Origin: Desulfoscipio geothermicus DSM 3669
Lineage (GTDB): Bacteria; Bacillota; Desulfotomaculia; Desulfotomaculales; Desulfallaceae
Length of the DNA: 64,000 nt
Direction: 5' to 3'
Assembly: GCF_900115975.1 (NCBI RefSeq)
Contig: NZ_FOYM01000011.1
Span: forward strand, 1-64,000
A program made the translations under genes and the position numbers. Each line of letters begins with the position of its first letter. The first letter of the stretch is position 1. Positions 29,601 to 37,083 of this stretch are shown one piece after another. Below the pieces are notes generated by a model. The model saw only the letters and a program-made list of their open reading frames with translations. It was not told where the DNA came from and searched no databases.

Positions 29601-29710
29601 CAGTAACGGCAAATGATGTAATATCGGCATTACATACATATAATAGGGTATATTTATGAAGAAAGGAGTTGAGAACCCGTCCCGGCGGCAGCCGCGGCAC
29701 GGGAATTGCT

Positions 29711-31126
29711 ATGTCGGTAGTATTTGGCGGAATTTGCCCGCATCCACCCATTATGGTACCTGAAGTGGGGCGGGGCAGGGACCGGGAAGTGGCCGGGACC
29801 AAAGAAGCACTGCTGGAATTGGGGCGAAGGATAAAGCAAAGCGGCGCCGAGACCCTGGTGATGATTACTCCCCACGGCACCGTTTTTGCTGACGGTATCG
29901 GGATCAGCGACTTCCCGGAATTAAAAGGGGACCTTGGCCGGTTTGGCGCTGCCAAAGTGCAGTTTAATTTGCCCAACGATCGGGACCTGGCGGCGGAAAT
30001 TAAAGCGACGGCTACTGCCAGGGGAATTACGGTGGTAGGTATAGACAACGAACTGGCGGGACGGTACGAATTGTCCGCCGAACTGGATCACGGCGTTATC
30101 GCGCCCCTGTATTTTATTCGGGAAGCCGGCGTCAACCTGCCCATGGTGCATGTATCCATGGGGATGCTGCCGTTCCCCTTGCTGTATTCCTTCGGGGTGG
30201 CGGTGCGTGATGCCGCCCGCAAGCTGGATAAAAAAACGGTTGTGCTGGCCAGCGGAGATCTTTCGCACCGGTTGACTGCGGATGCGCCGGCGGGCTTCGA
30301 CCCGGCCGGGAAGGAATTTGACAGCCGCATAATGGAACTGGTGGGCGAAGCCGACGCGGAAGGCTTTTTCGGGCTGGATCCCGGGCTGGTGGAAAGGGCC
30401 GGGGAATGCGGCCTGCGGCCCATCATCATGATGCTGGGGGCATTTGATGGGGTGTCACTGGAAAGTGAAGTGCTTTCGTACGAGGGACCCTTCGGTGTCG
30501 GCTACCTGGTGGCCGCGCTGCAGCCCGGCGCGCCGGACGAACGCCGCAACCTGGAAAAGAAACTGTTTGAACAACAAAGGGAAAAATTAGAGCGCCAAAG
30601 GGCCGGCGAGAGTTACCCGGTACAGGTGGCCCGCCGGGTGTTAAGCCGCTATTACAGCGGACAGGGGCAGATAAGGAAACCGGTTGACCCGGCAGGGGCG
30701 CCGCCCGAATTTGCTAATCGCCGGGCGGGCGTGTTTGTTTCCCTGAAAAAGCACGGGCAGCTCAGGGGATGCATCGGGACCATTTCCCCCACTTGCGACA
30801 ACATTATTGAAGAAATCGCTGAAAACGCCATCAGCGCGGCTACCCGGGATCCCCGGTTTTACCCGGTGGAAGCGTCGGAACTGCCGGAACTGGACATTTC
30901 CGTGGATATTCTGGGCGAACCGGAACCGGTGCAGAACATGGATGAACTGGACCCCGAAAAATACGGGGTGATAGTATCCGCCGGGGGCAGGCGGGGGCTT
31001 TTGCTGCCTGACCTGGAAGGGGTTGATACCGTGGAAGAACAGGTGGCCATTGCCCGGCAAAAAGCGGGCATCAGTCCGGATGAGCCCGTGCAGTTGGAGC
31101 GGTTTGAAGTGATCAGGTACCGGTAA
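29711..31126 (+). CDS. MEMO-AMMECR1 fusion protein (AmmeMemoRadiSam system proteins B and A)
   Basis: 471 residues combining two families. Residues about 1-275 are a MEMO/LigB-like domain with likely metal ligands in CPHPP (H11), ITPHGT (H55), SGDLSH (D183, H186) and GECGLRP (C233, matching the MEMO cysteine). Residues about 303-471 are AMMECR1-like with the signature LRGCIG (351-356). A charged linker joins them. The radical SAM gene of the same three-part set follows. The biochemical role of the set is unknown to me. ATG 29711 was chosen because the homologous part starts here; the earlier TTG 29669 lies too close to its GAAAGGAG. Confidence 0.88.
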   Translation: MSVVFGGICPHPPIMVPEVGRGRDREVAGTKEALLELGRRIKQSGAETLVMITPHGTVFADGIGISDFPELKGDLGRFGAAKVQFNLPNDRDLAAEIKATATARGITVVGIDNELAGRYELSAELDHGVIAPLYFIREAGVNLPMVHVSMGMLPFPLLYSFGVAVRDAARKLDKKTVVLASGDLSHRLTADAPAGFDPAGKEFDSRIMELVGEADAEGFFGLDPGLVERAGECGLRPIIMMLGAFDGVSLESEVLSYEGPFGVGYLVAALQPGAPDERRNLEKKLFEQQREKLERQRAGESYPVQVARRVLSRYYSGQGQIRKPVDPAGAPPEFANRRAGVFVSLKKHGQLRGCIGTISPTCDNIIEEIAENAISAATRDPRFYPVEASELPELDISVDILGEPEPVQNMDELDPEKYGVIVSAGGRRGLLLPDLEGVDTVEEQVAIARQKAGISPDEPVQLERFEVIRYR

Positions 31127-31129
31127 GAA

Positions 31130-31168
31130 TGGTGGTTGGTGGTTAGTGGTTGGTGGTTGGTGATTAAT
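31130..31168. repeat. TGGTTGG short tandem repeat
   Basis: Just after the fusion gene stop there is a run of degenerate 7-base units (TGGTTGG TGGTTAG TGGTTGG TGGTTGG TGATTAA). On the opposite strand this reads ACCAACC, similar to the ACCGACC run at 871-906. No hairpin forms. Confidence 0.7.
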
Positions 31169-31263
31169 GTGTGGGGTCGAAAAAAGTGTGTAGGAATTAT
31201 CAGTCAAGGCACTAGCGGGTCGTTGTTTAAATGGGGCATTATGAGTGGGGAGTGATCTTTAAC

Positions 31264-32265
31264 TTGAAGCATGAGGTTATGTTTTATACCAAAGGCGCCG
31301 GCGAGAAGGCCAATTGCAAAGTCTGTCCCAGGCTCTGCAATATAGCGCCGGGGAAACGGGGGTTTTGCCGGGTGCGTGAAAACGACGGCGGCGTCCTTTA
31401 TGCCACCAATTACGGTGAATGCTCGTCTTATGCCGTGGACCCCATTGAAAAGAAACCCCTGTATCACTTTTACCCGGGCAGCTTGATTTTCTCCCTGGGC
31501 ACGGTGGGCTGCAACCTGCGCTGCGGGTTCTGCCAGAACTGGCAAATCGCCCATGCAGACCCGCAAACCACTTATTTGTCTCCCGACCGGACGGTGAAAT
31601 TGACCCTGCGGCAAAAGGAACGCGGCTACCCCTGCATTGGCCTGGCTTATACGTACTCCGAGCCTTTCATGTGGTACGAGTACGTATACGATACCGCCAA
31701 ACTGGCCCGGGAGGCCGGTCTGAAAAACGTGCTGGTGACTAACGGTTACGTTAACGAGGAGCCCCTGCGGGAACTGCTCCCTTATATAGACGCCATGAAC
31801 ATAGACGTCAAGGCGTTTACCGACCGGTTCTACCGTTCCACCTGCGCGGGCCGGCTTGAGCCCGTACTGCGCACTGTGGAAACGGCGCACGGCCACTGCC
31901 ATATTGAAATAACCACCCTGCTGGTGACCGGTTTAAACGATGGCAGGGAGGAAATCGGCAGTCTGGTGGACTGGCTGGCCGGCGTGGACCCGGATATACC
32001 GCTGCATTTTTCCCGCTACTTTCCTAACTATGAGATGGACCTGCCGCCCACCCCGGAGGAAACCTTGTTGCGGGCCCGGGAAACAGCCCGTAAAAAGCTG
32101 CGCTACGTGTACATCGGCAACGCCCCGCAGCTTAATTCATCCAGTACCGAATGCCCGGAGTGCGGGGAAACGCTCATTGACCGTGAGGGGTACCGGGTAC
32201 GGATCAGGGACCTGGATAACGGCGTCTGCCCCCGGTGCGGGGAGAGGATTATCATTGTTCAATAG
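31264..32265 (+). CDS. Radical SAM enzyme of the AmmeMemoRadiSam system
   Basis: 333 residues from TTG 31264. The cluster motif GCNLRCGFCQNW gives C83, C87 and C90 for the SAM-bound 4Fe-4S cluster. Before it lies a second cysteine set CKVCPRLCNIAPGKRGFC (C18, C21, C25, C34), typical of this PflA-like subfamily. The C-terminus ends with two CxxC pairs (CPEC and CPRC), a zinc-ribbon-like tail. It follows the MEMO-AMMECR1 fusion and precedes the sirtuin by 14 bases. GGGGAG at 31247-31252 supports TTG 31264; ATG 31231 would lack a binding site. Confidence 0.87.
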   Translation: MKHEVMFYTKGAGEKANCKVCPRLCNIAPGKRGFCRVRENDGGVLYATNYGECSSYAVDPIEKKPLYHFYPGSLIFSLGTVGCNLRCGFCQNWQIAHADPQTTYLSPDRTVKLTLRQKERGYPCIGLAYTYSEPFMWYEYVYDTAKLAREAGLKNVLVTNGYVNEEPLRELLPYIDAMNIDVKAFTDRFYRSTCAGRLEPVLRTVETAHGHCHIEITTLLVTGLNDGREEIGSLVDWLAGVDPDIPLHFSRYFPNYEMDLPPTPEETLLRARETARKKLRYVYIGNAPQLNSSSTECPECGETLIDREGYRVRIRDLDNGVCPRCGERIIIVQ

Positions 32266-32279
32266 GTGGGAGGGATATT

Positions 32280-33035
32280 ATGGCCCTTCAGGAATTGGTG
32301 GTGGAACTGGCCGAGATGTTGCTGGCCAGCAAGAAGACGGTGGCGCTGACCGGCGCCGGTATTTCCACCGAAAGCGGTATTCCCGACTTCCGCAGCCCCG
32401 GCGGGCTGTGGTCCAAGGTGGACCCCATGTACGCCTTTGCTGCGGAAACATTTGTCAAGCGCCCTGCGGTCTTTTACGAAGTCGGCCTGCCGCATCTGTC
32501 CTCAATTACTTCGGCCTTGCCGAACCGGGCCCATGAAGTGCTGGCCGGGCTGGAAAAGGCCGGGCTTTTATCCTGCGTCATCACCCAGAACGTGGACAGC
32601 CTGCATCAGAAGGCCGGTTCGATGCGGGTGCTGGAAGTGCACGGGCACCTGCGCTCGGCAACCTGTATGAATTGCGGTGCGCAGATTACCTGGGACCATC
32701 TGCTGGAGAAAATGTTTGCCGGTCAGGTGCCGCCCCGGTGCAATGAATGCCGGGGCATTTTCAAGCCTGACTGCGTGTTTTTCGGTGACAATATGACCGC
32801 TGATTTCACCGAGGCTGTAACGGAAGCCTCCGACTGCGACCTGATGCTGGTGGTGGGGTCCAGCCTGGAAGTTGCCCCGGCTAATTATCTGCCCATGCTG
32901 GCCGGTAAATTAGCTATAATAAATATTGGCGCCTCCATGGCCGACAGCAAGGCCGGTCTGGTCATCAACCACCGGGCGGGGGAAACCCTGGACCTGCTTT
33001 GGGACGAACTGGTAAAGCGCCGAGCTGTAAAATAA
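32280..33035 (+). CDS. NAD-dependent protein deacylase, SIR2 family (sirtuin)
   Basis: 251 residues. The NAD site is GAGISTESGIPDFRS, followed by TQNVDSLHQKAG and the catalytic histidine in LEVHGHLRS. The zinc site is CMNC and CNEC. It removes acyl groups from lysines using NAD. It starts 14 bases after the radical SAM stop behind GGTGGGAGGG, so it is likely in the same transcript. That puts a deacylase next to the MEMO/AMMECR1/radical SAM set. Confidence 0.93.
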   Translation: MALQELVVELAEMLLASKKTVALTGAGISTESGIPDFRSPGGLWSKVDPMYAFAAETFVKRPAVFYEVGLPHLSSITSALPNRAHEVLAGLEKAGLLSCVITQNVDSLHQKAGSMRVLEVHGHLRSATCMNCGAQITWDHLLEKMFAGQVPPRCNECRGIFKPDCVFFGDNMTADFTEAVTEASDCDLMLVVGSSLEVAPANYLPMLAGKLAIINIGASMADSKAGLVINHRAGETLDLLWDELVKRRAVK

Positions 33036-33228: not shown

Positions 33229-35529
33229 TTGGCCAATGCCAGAACAGAAGAAGTTAAAAACTTAATTTTGCAGTCTATTCCGCCGGGTGGCGCCATTGAC
33301 CTGCAGGAACTGTGGGAGCGCATGGGAAGCGGCATTGACGAGTTATCCGGCGCCTTGCAGTCACTGGTCTCCCGGGGAGAACTGATTGTTTCCGGTCCCC
33401 ACGGCGGCCCGCCGGAACAGCTCATGTTGAGCCTGCCGGGCAACGGCGCCGGAAATGCCGGTGCTAACCTTTCCGGCAGGGAAAAACGCGCGGCCGCCAA
33501 ACTAATCGCCTCCAATATGCCCGTATTAAAAGCCATTTTAATGGCGCGGGCCGGGGAGAAGGTCAGGGAAATTTTAAGCGACGGAGTACCCCGCACCCGG
33601 GAGGATTTGGCCTCCATGATGGATCTGCCGCCCAAGCTGCCCGGCGCGCTGCCCGATGTTATCATGCGGTCCGACAACACTTACACGTTGCGGGACACCG
33701 TAGCCGGCCGGGCCGAACTGTCCCGGCGGGCCGAGGAATCCCGCGCCCGGGCCGAGGCTGTCCGGGCGCAGCGGCGACGGGTCGATGAACTGCTTGAGGA
33801 GCGCGAGGCGCTGACGGAAGAGGAAATCAGCATTGCTATGGGGGAAAAATTGCTGCCCGAGGCGGTTTCCCACTTGATGCGCTTGCCGGGCGGGCGCTAC
33901 ACCCACCCGGACAGCGACGCCGCCTGGGACGAGGTGGGCAGGTACCTGTCCCGCAGCGAGCCGGTGCAGCGCAAGGATTTTGTGCGGATGTTCAAGCGGC
34001 ATAAAAAACTGGTGGCCCACGTCAAAAAAGGGCGGGAGGAACCCCCCTTTGTTATTTTGCCCGACGGTCGCATTACCGTGGACACCCACCCTGCGGGCCG
34101 GGAAGAACTGCGCCGCCGGGAGATTCTCGCTTATGTACACTATACATTGAAGGAAAGAATGGGCGGGCGTTCATTTTTCACCCTGGAGGATTTCGCGCCC
34201 CGGGAGCGGACCCTGGCCAAACAGGAAGCCCTGCAGGCCGGGTGTGTTGAATTGAAGCTGGGGCGGCAGGAGATGTTCTGCGCCCCCATTAAAGTCGCAC
34301 CGGCGAAAATCGCCCGGGAACTGAAAGAGCTGACCGGACTGGACTTTCCTGACCGGGGCGGACCCATCATGCCGGTGGCCTACCTGGTGGATAATTCGTT
34401 CAGCGCCCGGGAAACGGCGCGGCTTGTAGGCGTGCGCCCCGGCGACGTGGCCGACCTCTATGAGCAGGGCTACCTACAAGGTTTTGCGCTGGAAAGGACC
34501 ATGCGCTACTGGCGACCCGCCGTGGAAGAACTGCGCCGCTCGCCCAACATAGAGCGGTTGCTGCGGCGTGTGGAAAAGATAAAAATGACGGATGCGGCCA
34601 GAATCCTGGGCATTACCCCGGACCAGGTGCGGAGGATGATCCGGGAGGGGCACCTGCGCAGCGCCGGGCGCGCCGGGCGGGATATGCACTACCTGCGCCG
34701 GGGCGATGTGGAGGATATACTGGCCCGGCTGCCTGAAATAAGGGCCGCCTGGGGTGAAGGCGAATCCCCCGGGGCGGGTGTCGAACGGGCGGTCCGCCGC
34801 AGAAAACGGCGGCCCAGGCGCGCAAAGCCGGCGGTGGTGCAGACCCCCGGTCCGATCAAGCTGGACCCTTACCAGGAGCAGGCCATAGAAGCGTTGCTGG
34901 CCGGGCATTCCGTGCTGGTGGCGGCGCCCACTGGGACGGGCAAAACCCTGGTGGCGGAGCGGCTGGTGGACCGTATCCTGGAACAGGGCAGGGAGGTCAT
35001 TTACACCTCGCCCATTAAGGCCCTTTCCAATCAGAAATACCGGGATTTTGCCCGGCTGTACGGTTATAACAGAGTGGGGCTCATCACCGGTGACGTGTCC
35101 ATAAACGAGCGGGCGCAGCTTTTGGTGATGACCACGGAAATTTTCCGTAACTGGTGTTTTGCTAACCCGGAGTGGATGGAAAACATCACTCATGTGATTT
35201 TTGATGAAATTCACTATCTGGATGACCCGGAGCGGGGTACAGCCTGGGAGGAAAGCATTATTTTTGCGCCGCCGCATATCCGCATCCTGGGCCTTTCCGC
35301 CACCGTGCCCAACATCCATGAACTGGCCGCCTGGATGGAAGATGTCAGGGGCAGCCAGGTGGTAGTGGTGGAAGAATACCGGCGCGCCGTGCCGCTGGAT
35401 ATCAAATGGATCACCCCGGATAACGAAGTGCTGGACGCCGGTGAGGCCCTGGATGAGATCGAGGCGCTGCGCCAGGTGGGCAGCAGGCGCCATTACATGG
35501 GCGGATATTCCGGGGGGAAGGGGGAATAG
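33229..35529 (+). CDS. Ski2-like DEAD/DEAH helicase, N-terminal part (first RecA domain); frame stops at TAG
   Basis: 766 residues. A long N-terminal region includes two excisionase/MerR-like segments (about 390-490, for example ITPDQVRRMIREGHLRSAGR). The first RecA domain follows: Walker A AAPTGTGKT (about 565-573), SPIKALSNQKY, DEIH box (about 658) and LSATVP. It ends GGYSGGKGE at TAG 35527-35529. The second RecA domain continues in the same frame only three bases later as a separate open frame. Either one intact gene has acquired an amber stop or two coupled genes encode the halves. TTG-like start with AGGAGAG upstream. Confidence 0.8.
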   Translation: MANARTEEVKNLILQSIPPGGAIDLQELWERMGSGIDELSGALQSLVSRGELIVSGPHGGPPEQLMLSLPGNGAGNAGANLSGREKRAAAKLIASNMPVLKAILMARAGEKVREILSDGVPRTREDLASMMDLPPKLPGALPDVIMRSDNTYTLRDTVAGRAELSRRAEESRARAEAVRAQRRRVDELLEEREALTEEEISIAMGEKLLPEAVSHLMRLPGGRYTHPDSDAAWDEVGRYLSRSEPVQRKDFVRMFKRHKKLVAHVKKGREEPPFVILPDGRITVDTHPAGREELRRREILAYVHYTLKERMGGRSFFTLEDFAPRERTLAKQEALQAGCVELKLGRQEMFCAPIKVAPAKIARELKELTGLDFPDRGGPIMPVAYLVDNSFSARETARLVGVRPGDVADLYEQGYLQGFALERTMRYWRPAVEELRRSPNIERLLRRVEKIKMTDAARILGITPDQVRRMIREGHLRSAGRAGRDMHYLRRGDVEDILARLPEIRAAWGEGESPGAGVERAVRRRKRRPRRAKPAVVQTPGPIKLDPYQEQAIEALLAGHSVLVAAPTGTGKTLVAERLVDRILEQGREVIYTSPIKALSNQKYRDFARLYGYNRVGLITGDVSINERAQLLVMTTEIFRNWCFANPEWMENITHVIFDEIHYLDDPERGTAWEESIIFAPPHIRILGLSATVPNIHELAAWMEDVRGSQVVVVEEYRRAVPLDIKWITPDNEVLDAGEALDEIEALRQVGSRRHYMGGYSGGKGE

Positions 35530-35532
35530 AAA

Positions 35533-37083
35533 GTGGCTTTGGTGGAATTAAAATCTTGCGCGGGTGTGGTGGAGGCGATCCAGGACCACCTGCCGGCCCT
35601 GTACTTTGTGTTCAGCCGGGGGCGGACCGAGCAACTGGCCGAGGAACTGGGCCGGGAGTGGGACTTTTTGCTGCCGGAAGAAAAGGCCCGCGTCAGCGAA
35701 TACATGGAAAAGGCCGAGCACGGCAACCCGGGCCTGTTCGGGGGCCGGCGCAAGCACCTGCGGCGGCTGCTGCTCCAGGGTATCGGCTACCATCATGCCG
35801 GCCTGTCCCCCGCCCTCAAGGAACTGGTGGAAAACCTTTACGAGGCCAGGCTGGTTTTTGTGCTGTTTTGCACCGAGACGTTTGCCGTGGGGATCAATTT
35901 CCCCGCCGCCAGTACGGTGTTTGACGCCACCCGCAAATGGGACGGCCGCAACCACCGGTCCCTGTTGAACCGGGAATTCTTTCAAATGGCCGGGCGGGCC
36001 GGCCGGCGCGGCTTTGACCGGGTGGGGCACGTATACATCAATATAGACGAAAAGTTTCCCGAGCAAACGGGTTTTTTTGATGAGAGCGAGGTGGAGCCGG
36101 TCAAGGGGCGGCTGATTATTTCCCCCAATACCGTGCTTAGCCTGCTGCACTGGAAAACCGACGCGGAAATAGAGCGGTTCCTCTCCCAAAACCTGGCGGT
36201 GTACCAGAACAGCCGGGAGGCCGTAAATCTGGCCGGAGAGCTGGAAAACGTAGAGGAAAAAGTTTTTGCCCTGCGTAATACGTTTTGCGAGGATAAGGAC
36301 GGGCCTGCCTGCCCCATGTTCCGGCAGAAGCTGAAAAAAGAACTCAACCGGCTGCGCAACCGGAGAAAACGCAAAAAGCCGGAAACACCGGGTCGGGTGG
36401 CGGAAATAAAGTCCATCCTGGCCCAGCCTGCCAAAGGGTGCCTGCACCATGACTGCCGGGACGCCCACGAGGAAATCACGGCTTTAATCGAGCGCAAAAA
36501 GGAACTGGTCAGGCGCAACCGGTACCTGAAAAAACACGCCACCGATTATCACCAGGAGTTCCGGCGCATGTGCGACCTTCTGGAAAAACTGGGCTTCATT
36601 GAGGGTAAGACCCTGCTGCCCCGGGGGCTGTTTGCCCTGCATGTGCATGTGCAGGAGATACTGGTAACCGAGCTGGTTTTTTCCGGGATTCTGCGCGAAG
36701 CCTCGCCGGACGAGGCGGCTTCCATCCTGGCCGGTATCGATTACCAGCCCGGGCGGGACGAGGTGGTGCTGCCCGGCGAATATCCCATGGACGACGTGGC
36801 CCTGTTGCGCAATGAATTACTTAACGTCGGTGTGCCGGAACACCTTTGTGTCTGGTCGCCGTTGCCCGGGCCGCTGGCCGAGGCCTGGTATAAGGGCGCC
36901 ACTTTTGATGAGTTGCAGAAGCGCTGCAACCTGCACGAGGGCGATATTTTCTCCGTTATCCGGCGGGAAATCGACGTGCTGCGGCAAATTGAGCGGGCGG
37001 CCGGCGAAGACAGGGCCTTAAGGCTGGCCATGAACGATATCAGAGCCGTGCTGGACCGGGACGAGGTGGCGGTATTGATTTAG
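35533..37083 (+). CDS. Ski2-like helicase, C-terminal part (second RecA domain and accessory domain)
   Basis: 516 residues if started at GTG 35533, three bases after the TAG that ends the first part and in the same frame. It holds YFVFSRGRTEQLAEEL, GIGYHHAGLSPALKELVE, TFAVGINFPA and the motif VI QMAGRAGRRGFD (about residues 151-162), then a cysteine-containing and helical C-terminal domain as in Mtr4/Ski2-like RNA helicases. AAGGGGGAA precedes the GTG at workable spacing, so separate translation is possible. Without the first part it lacks the ATP-binding Walker A. Confidence 0.8.
   Translation: MALVELKSCAGVVEAIQDHLPALYFVFSRGRTEQLAEELGREWDFLLPEEKARVSEYMEKAEHGNPGLFGGRRKHLRRLLLQGIGYHHAGLSPALKELVENLYEARLVFVLFCTETFAVGINFPAASTVFDATRKWDGRNHRSLLNREFFQMAGRAGRRGFDRVGHVYINIDEKFPEQTGFFDESEVEPVKGRLIISPNTVLSLLHWKTDAEIERFLSQNLAVYQNSREAVNLAGELENVEEKVFALRNTFCEDKDGPACPMFRQKLKKELNRLRNRRKRKKPETPGRVAEIKSILAQPAKGCLHHDCRDAHEEITALIERKKELVRRNRYLKKHATDYHQEFRRMCDLLEKLGFIEGKTLLPRGLFALHVHVQEILVTELVFSGILREASPDEAASILAGIDYQPGRDEVVLPGEYPMDDVALLRNELLNVGVPEHLCVWSPLPGPLAEAWYKGATFDELQKRCNLHEGDIFSVIRREIDVLRQIERAAGEDRALRLAMNDIRAVLDRDEVAVLI

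Follow-up and report, generated by a model that had tools for sequence, protein, structure and literature searches.

The ATP site of SF2 helicases sits between two RecA domains, which are normally found on one chain. The eukaryotic DExH RNA helicases Mtr4/Dob1, Ski2 and FRH carry RecA1, RecA2 and a DSHCT domain, in this order, on one polypeptide, and the arch of Mtr4/Ski2 features a beta KOW domain. None of them is known to have the winged-helix N-terminal region described below. One-ORF DSHCT helicases, mostly 740-900 aa long, are also found in Desulfosporosinus, Carboxydocella and other Bacillota, and we take these bacterial proteins to be of the HelY type.

Natural division of helicase-containing enzymes has been described elsewhere. 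The YprA-family SF2 helicase of the DISARM system is spread over the two adjacent genes of DrmA and DrmB, whose products form a complex; in the available part of that account the separate part is an OB-CON-DUF1998 accessory module and not a RecA domain (PMC12458937). The reverse gyrases of Nanoarchaeum equitans and Methanopyrus kandleri are also split, the break separating helicase from topoisomerase domains in the former and lying off domain borders in the latter. Each of these divisions concerns a single species, and the available part of the source reports no break between RecA domains (PMC8185306). A literature search, with subscription papers mostly outside its reach, yielded neither a natural case of an SF2 helicase cut between the RecA domains nor the pair presented here.

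The pair lies in the window, the whole 64,000-nucleotide stretch of Desulfoscipio geothermicus DNA that was analysed (Table 1). A sequence-only reading had recognized here a helicase cut between its RecA domains, and its description of two open frames in the same frame, separated by TAG plus three bases (AAA), is confirmed. The Ski2-like motifs I, DExH box, SAT, V and VI (QxxGRxGR) are all present and shared out over both ORFs, with Walker A and DEIH in the first and GRAGRRG in the second as that reading had placed them; Pfam assigns DEAD to the former, and Helicase_C and DSHCT to the latter. The stop thus leaves the two RecA domains on separate polypeptides. The TTG start of the first gene is backed by an LAN.. 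start common to divergent homologues, and the GTG start of the second aligns with an ATG in a relative (L013). The second gene gives the single DSHCT match of the whole genome, and among 14 control genomes the domain was found only in Synechococcus elongatus and Corynebacterium glutamicum. The Hel308 profile NF040935 (NCBIfam) scored 102.9 and 72 bits, below its cut-off of 1200, and neither ORF gave a Pfam match to a DUF1998/MZB module at E 0.001. Assignment to a defence system was considered and set aside, PADLOC matches covering only the RecA domains plus one short HTH match.

Table 1. Features of the divided helicase locus, in positions of the window
Feature	Position	Strand	Basis and remarks
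N subunit gene: winged-helix array + RecA1	33229..35529	+	TTG start, TAG stop, 766 aa
N-terminal region, ~525 residues, predicted winged-helix chain	33229..34803	+	structure model md386178181f2; A4 profile searches
HTH_17 (excisionase/MerR-like) domain	34588..34728	+	Pfam; also in 22/23 relatives
DEAD/RecA1 domain (Pfam span)	34867..35322	+	Pfam, residues 547-698 of first ORF
Walker A, APTGTGKT	34924..34947	+	sequence; motif kept in 78/78 split N proteins
Motif II, DEIH	35203..35214	+	sequence; motif comparison across split loci
Shine-Dalgarno AAGGGGG of C gene	35518..35524	+	overlaps end of N gene; 8 nt before GTG
TAG stop of N gene	35527..35529	+	in sole internal low-confidence linker (model residues 239-243; TAG = 242)
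C subunit gene: RecA2 + helical stalk with four Cys + DSHCT	35533..37083	+	GTG start, 516 aa
Helicase_C/RecA2 (Pfam span)	35779..36012	+	Pfam, residues 83-160 of second ORF
Motif VI, QMAGRAGRRG	35983..36012	+	ends Helicase_C/RecA2 span
Four invariant Cys (C252, C260, C303, C308 of C subunit)	36286..36456	+	alignment, 14/14
DSHCT domain	36619..37068	+	PF08148, 60.7 bits vs cut-off 22.7; residues 363-512 of second ORF

Both parts have their best sequence and fold matches in Mtr4/Dob1, Ski2 and FRH and keep their domain order, but on two polypeptides instead of one. Where Mtr4/Ski2 have the KOW arch, only helices and four invariant cysteines are found here. The same succession of RecA1, RecA2, Cys4 stalk and DSHCT, with the same four Cys, occurs in the fused bacterial DSHCT helicases, which are ~33-42% identical to the C part but lack the N-terminal region. 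It is very likely that the two ORFs code the subunits of an obligate two-subunit Ski2/Mtr4-like DExH helicase, produced from adjacent genes by probably coupled translation and with its ATP site built across two polypeptides. The N subunit would supply RecA1 with Walker A and DExH plus, in this case, a winged-helix array of DNA-binding type, while the C subunit would supply RecA2 with the motif VI arginines, the Cys4 helical stalk and DSHCT. Neither half is a complete ATPase, so that the two should join as an obligate heterodimer. The ATP site and RNA channel would then be formed where RecA1 and RecA2 meet, just as they are in one-chain Mtr4, and the stop cuts a flexible linker between the RecA domains. 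Family membership suggests that the substrate is RNA.

The division is characteristic of the host's class. A search with the C part in 113 genomes of the class (the same set as its order) gave a match in 88. Regions were taken for 87 of these, one of them the window; G392, which lies on two contig pieces, was omitted, and one locus without upstream sequence (L087) was set aside, leaving 86 loci that were parsed. A stop separates RecA1 from RecA2 in 78 of them, distributed over 12 of the 13 families parsed, and one ORF covers both in the other 8. The 78 include a damaged locus (L155, genome G363) and a partial copy with stops (L156, G385). L155 belongs to family f12 and to a draft 72% complete, and its several stops and frame breaks in both parts point to a decaying gene or a poor assembly. 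Named class members with the gene belong to Desulfallas, Desulfotruncus, Desulfoscipio, Desulfofundulus, Desulforamulus and Pelotomaculum, and Pelotomaculum propionicicum (L192) is among those with the fused form. The N and C parts co-occur in 88/88 genomes that have the C part; the RecA1 part was found in 90/113 class genomes, the additional two (G373 and G380, no C part found) having it at a contig end.

Outside the class the helicase is in one piece. Of the hits obtained outside the class in a draw of 299 genomes from the phylum, 52 (in 51 genomes) span 495 or more of the 516 residues, shorter or weaker ones being excluded, and every one of them falls in an open frame of 641-906 aa. Of these loci 21 were fetched; 20 have Walker A, DExH and motif VI together in one ORF, while in the other (L054) a contig end cuts the ORF before Walker A. 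A named set of 30 non-class loci gave 28 with one ORF and two (L218, L223) that look frameshifted or cut. A tree was built from 105 rows, which were 76 split, 8 fused class and 21 outgroup proteins (L155 and L156 dropped); in it the class forms one branch (SH-aLRT 100). Seven long fused proteins are nested within split Pelotomaculum-type proteins (SH-aLRT 97), and a short fused protein (G028) is placed beside that group. Two split pairs (L157 and L158, families f10 and f4) are very divergent, with long branches and 28% identity in C, and are possibly a separate lineage of split helicase.

Parsimony explains this distribution with three changes, one fission and two re-fusions. AU tests on 49 rows rejected a single clade of split proteins (p 4.6e-6) and also a single clade of the fused proteins of the class (p 9.5e-4). 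In the re-fused relatives the stop is gone from the DNA, and the linkers have a split-type tail (ALRN..W.E) that runs directly into the start of the C gene (ELPE.SCSEI). The most likely history, as far as quick trees (SH-aLRT) and parsimony support a single fission, would be one fission near the base of the class followed by two re-fusions. A different history, in which the class kept the fused state as ancestral, divided the gene on many occasions and never re-fused it, is unlikely. The outgroup is fused and fused members are found inside the class, as this history would have it, and a break-prone linker could still give many fissions since junction frames and stops differ; against this, without re-fusion the 49-row tree needs 7 fissions, compared with 1 fission plus 2 re-fusions otherwise.

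The two parts are well conserved, as the sequence-only reading had it. Comparison with nine family members gave dN/dS of 0.065-0.115 for RecA1 (one saturated), 0.046-0.119 for the C part and 0.11-0.25 for the N-terminal region, two further, more distant members being saturated. By these estimates purifying selection acts on both halves. Walker A, TTEI and LSAT are kept in 78/78 split loci, as is the DExH box (by pattern or by eye), which reads DEFH in L157 and L158. Motif VI was found by a first pattern in 72 split loci, with Ser for Ala in four more and in a variant form in L158, which leaves only the partial L156. The four cysteines are each in position in 77/78 split, 8/8 fused class and 21/21 outgroup proteins, and they probably form a metal site; the helical stalk in which they sit corresponds in position to the arch of Mtr4.

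The core of the protein, both ORFs being read through the TAG as one chain of 759 aa, was modelled with AlphaFold from a 63-row alignment with named relatives (pLDDT 90.4, pTM 0.86). The best PDB matches of this one-chain model are Mtr4 and its relatives, e.g. 2xgj_B (TM 0.77/0.76), giving it the overall Mtr4/Ski2 fold. Between model residues 441 and 595 there are only helices and no strands, so that a KOW beta domain is absent. Internally, pLDDT falls below 50 only in the linker that contains the TAG. The one-chain model shows the two halves as complementary, with the break in a linker. Assembly in trans, on which a model built as one chain has no bearing, is proposed on other grounds: a heterodimer would best explain the co-occurrence of the two parts, their shared motifs and their re-fusion.

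The two ORFs might instead code independent proteins, for example a RecA1 ATP-binding regulator and a RecA2-DSHCT RNA-binding protein that never build a joint motor. This is quite improbable considering the strict co-occurrence and adjacency of the genes, the preservation of motifs from both sides of the ATP site and the two re-fusions into one chain. It gains some weight from the fact that joint assembly is deduced, from the faster evolution of the N-terminal region relative to the core and from the occurrence of RecA1 alone, at ~250 aa, in several families.

Translation signals fit a two-subunit helicase. The median distance from the N stop to the C start is 13 nt, and the two genes overlap in 20/76 loci (L155 and L156 excluded). 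At the host locus the purine-rich stretch that had been noticed before the GTG is a Shine-Dalgarno motif, the leader having a strong predicted pairing of -14.6 kcal/mol with the 16S tail. Predicted pairing of the C-gene leader reaches -6 kcal/mol in 69/76 loci, compared with 36% when internal start codons were drawn as matched controls (1480 draws); the C start was taken as the best candidate around the position matching its homologues, and the control draws used an equal number of candidates. This motif and the spacing fit separate but coupled translation, a proposal of the sequence-only reading that the split relatives also support.

Read-through or recoding of the stop, by amber suppression or with pyrrolysine, would join the parts and make the split merely apparent. 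In the window genome the two ORFs are indeed in one frame, interrupted by one TAG, but relatives at the junction position have differing stops and all three frames. The 78 split loci have TGA in 40, TAA in 22 and TAG in only 16, and their relative frames are distributed 15/36/27; 63 pairs are out of frame, and the shared frame of the host pair means little since only 15 are in frame. On this comparison the description as a helicase divided by one in-frame TAG is true of the window genome, but the frame and the stop are incidental across the class. The C gene has its own Shine-Dalgarno, re-fused relatives lost the stop at the DNA level, and the best PylS match of the genome scored 30.6 bits against a cut-off of 178.15; the 64,000-nt window has no tRNA genes. 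Read-through is thus very improbable. Recent inactivation or a sequencing or assembly error in one genome, suggested by a single TAG in a linker within a draft of 83 contigs, is scarcely credible given the class-wide division, the selection on both halves and the split in one-contig genomes (G013, G369 and G048).

Directly upstream of the pair (29669-33035) are AmmeMemoRadiSam genes, coding an AMMECR1/MEMO-like protein and a radical SAM enzyme, and then a CobB-type sirtuin gene. A radical SAM gene is also upstream in L160 and L169. A functional link via neighbours was discarded after scanning 10 neighbours of 7 loci, as unrelated genes are found elsewhere.

The N subunit is found in several forms. 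It is long, with the winged-helix region joined to RecA1, in families f1, f12, f18 and most of f8, of intermediate length in f13, and reduced to RecA1 alone (~250-325 aa) in f3, f5, f9, f11 and f15; the short rows in f1 and f12 are due to a contig end (L086) and a broken copy (L155), respectively. The N-terminal region was modelled as a chain of small winged helices (pLDDT 86, pTM 0.51), and a search of the PDB with its fold gave nothing at E 0.001 or better. Among the 113 class and 149 phylum genomes searched it is full-length only in the host's class: the A4 profile gave 4 matches in the phylum set at 1e-5, three in class members and one to a short HTH stretch. Its provision in trans in short-form genomes was considered and rejected, the same profile finding there short HTH stretches and no full-length copy. 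In the host, this class-restricted region, a predicted winged-helix chain with an excisionase-like HTH, is joined to an RNA-helicase-type RecA1.

A whole bacterial class appears to manage with the chain severed exactly between the RecA domains, and two lineages have seemingly rejoined it, a natural experiment on the purpose of the covalent linker. The two-subunit helicase would be a ready two-component enzyme whose assembly is perhaps controllable, with split and re-fused homologues at hand for direct comparison. Tentatively, and with low confidence, we suggest that assembly of the two-piece SF2 motor is itself the step at which control is exerted. The RecA1 half would be anchored to DNA through the winged-helix array, and completion of the motor by the RecA2-DSHCT half would be confined to sites where that half encounters RNA, which would tie RNA unwinding to a chromosomal place; families that lost the array and have RecA1 alone (~250 aa) would possess an untethered form. 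Three loci (L107, L094 and L114) have a stand-alone RecA1 of ~250 aa adjoining its RecA2-DSHCT partner, a handy format for purification.
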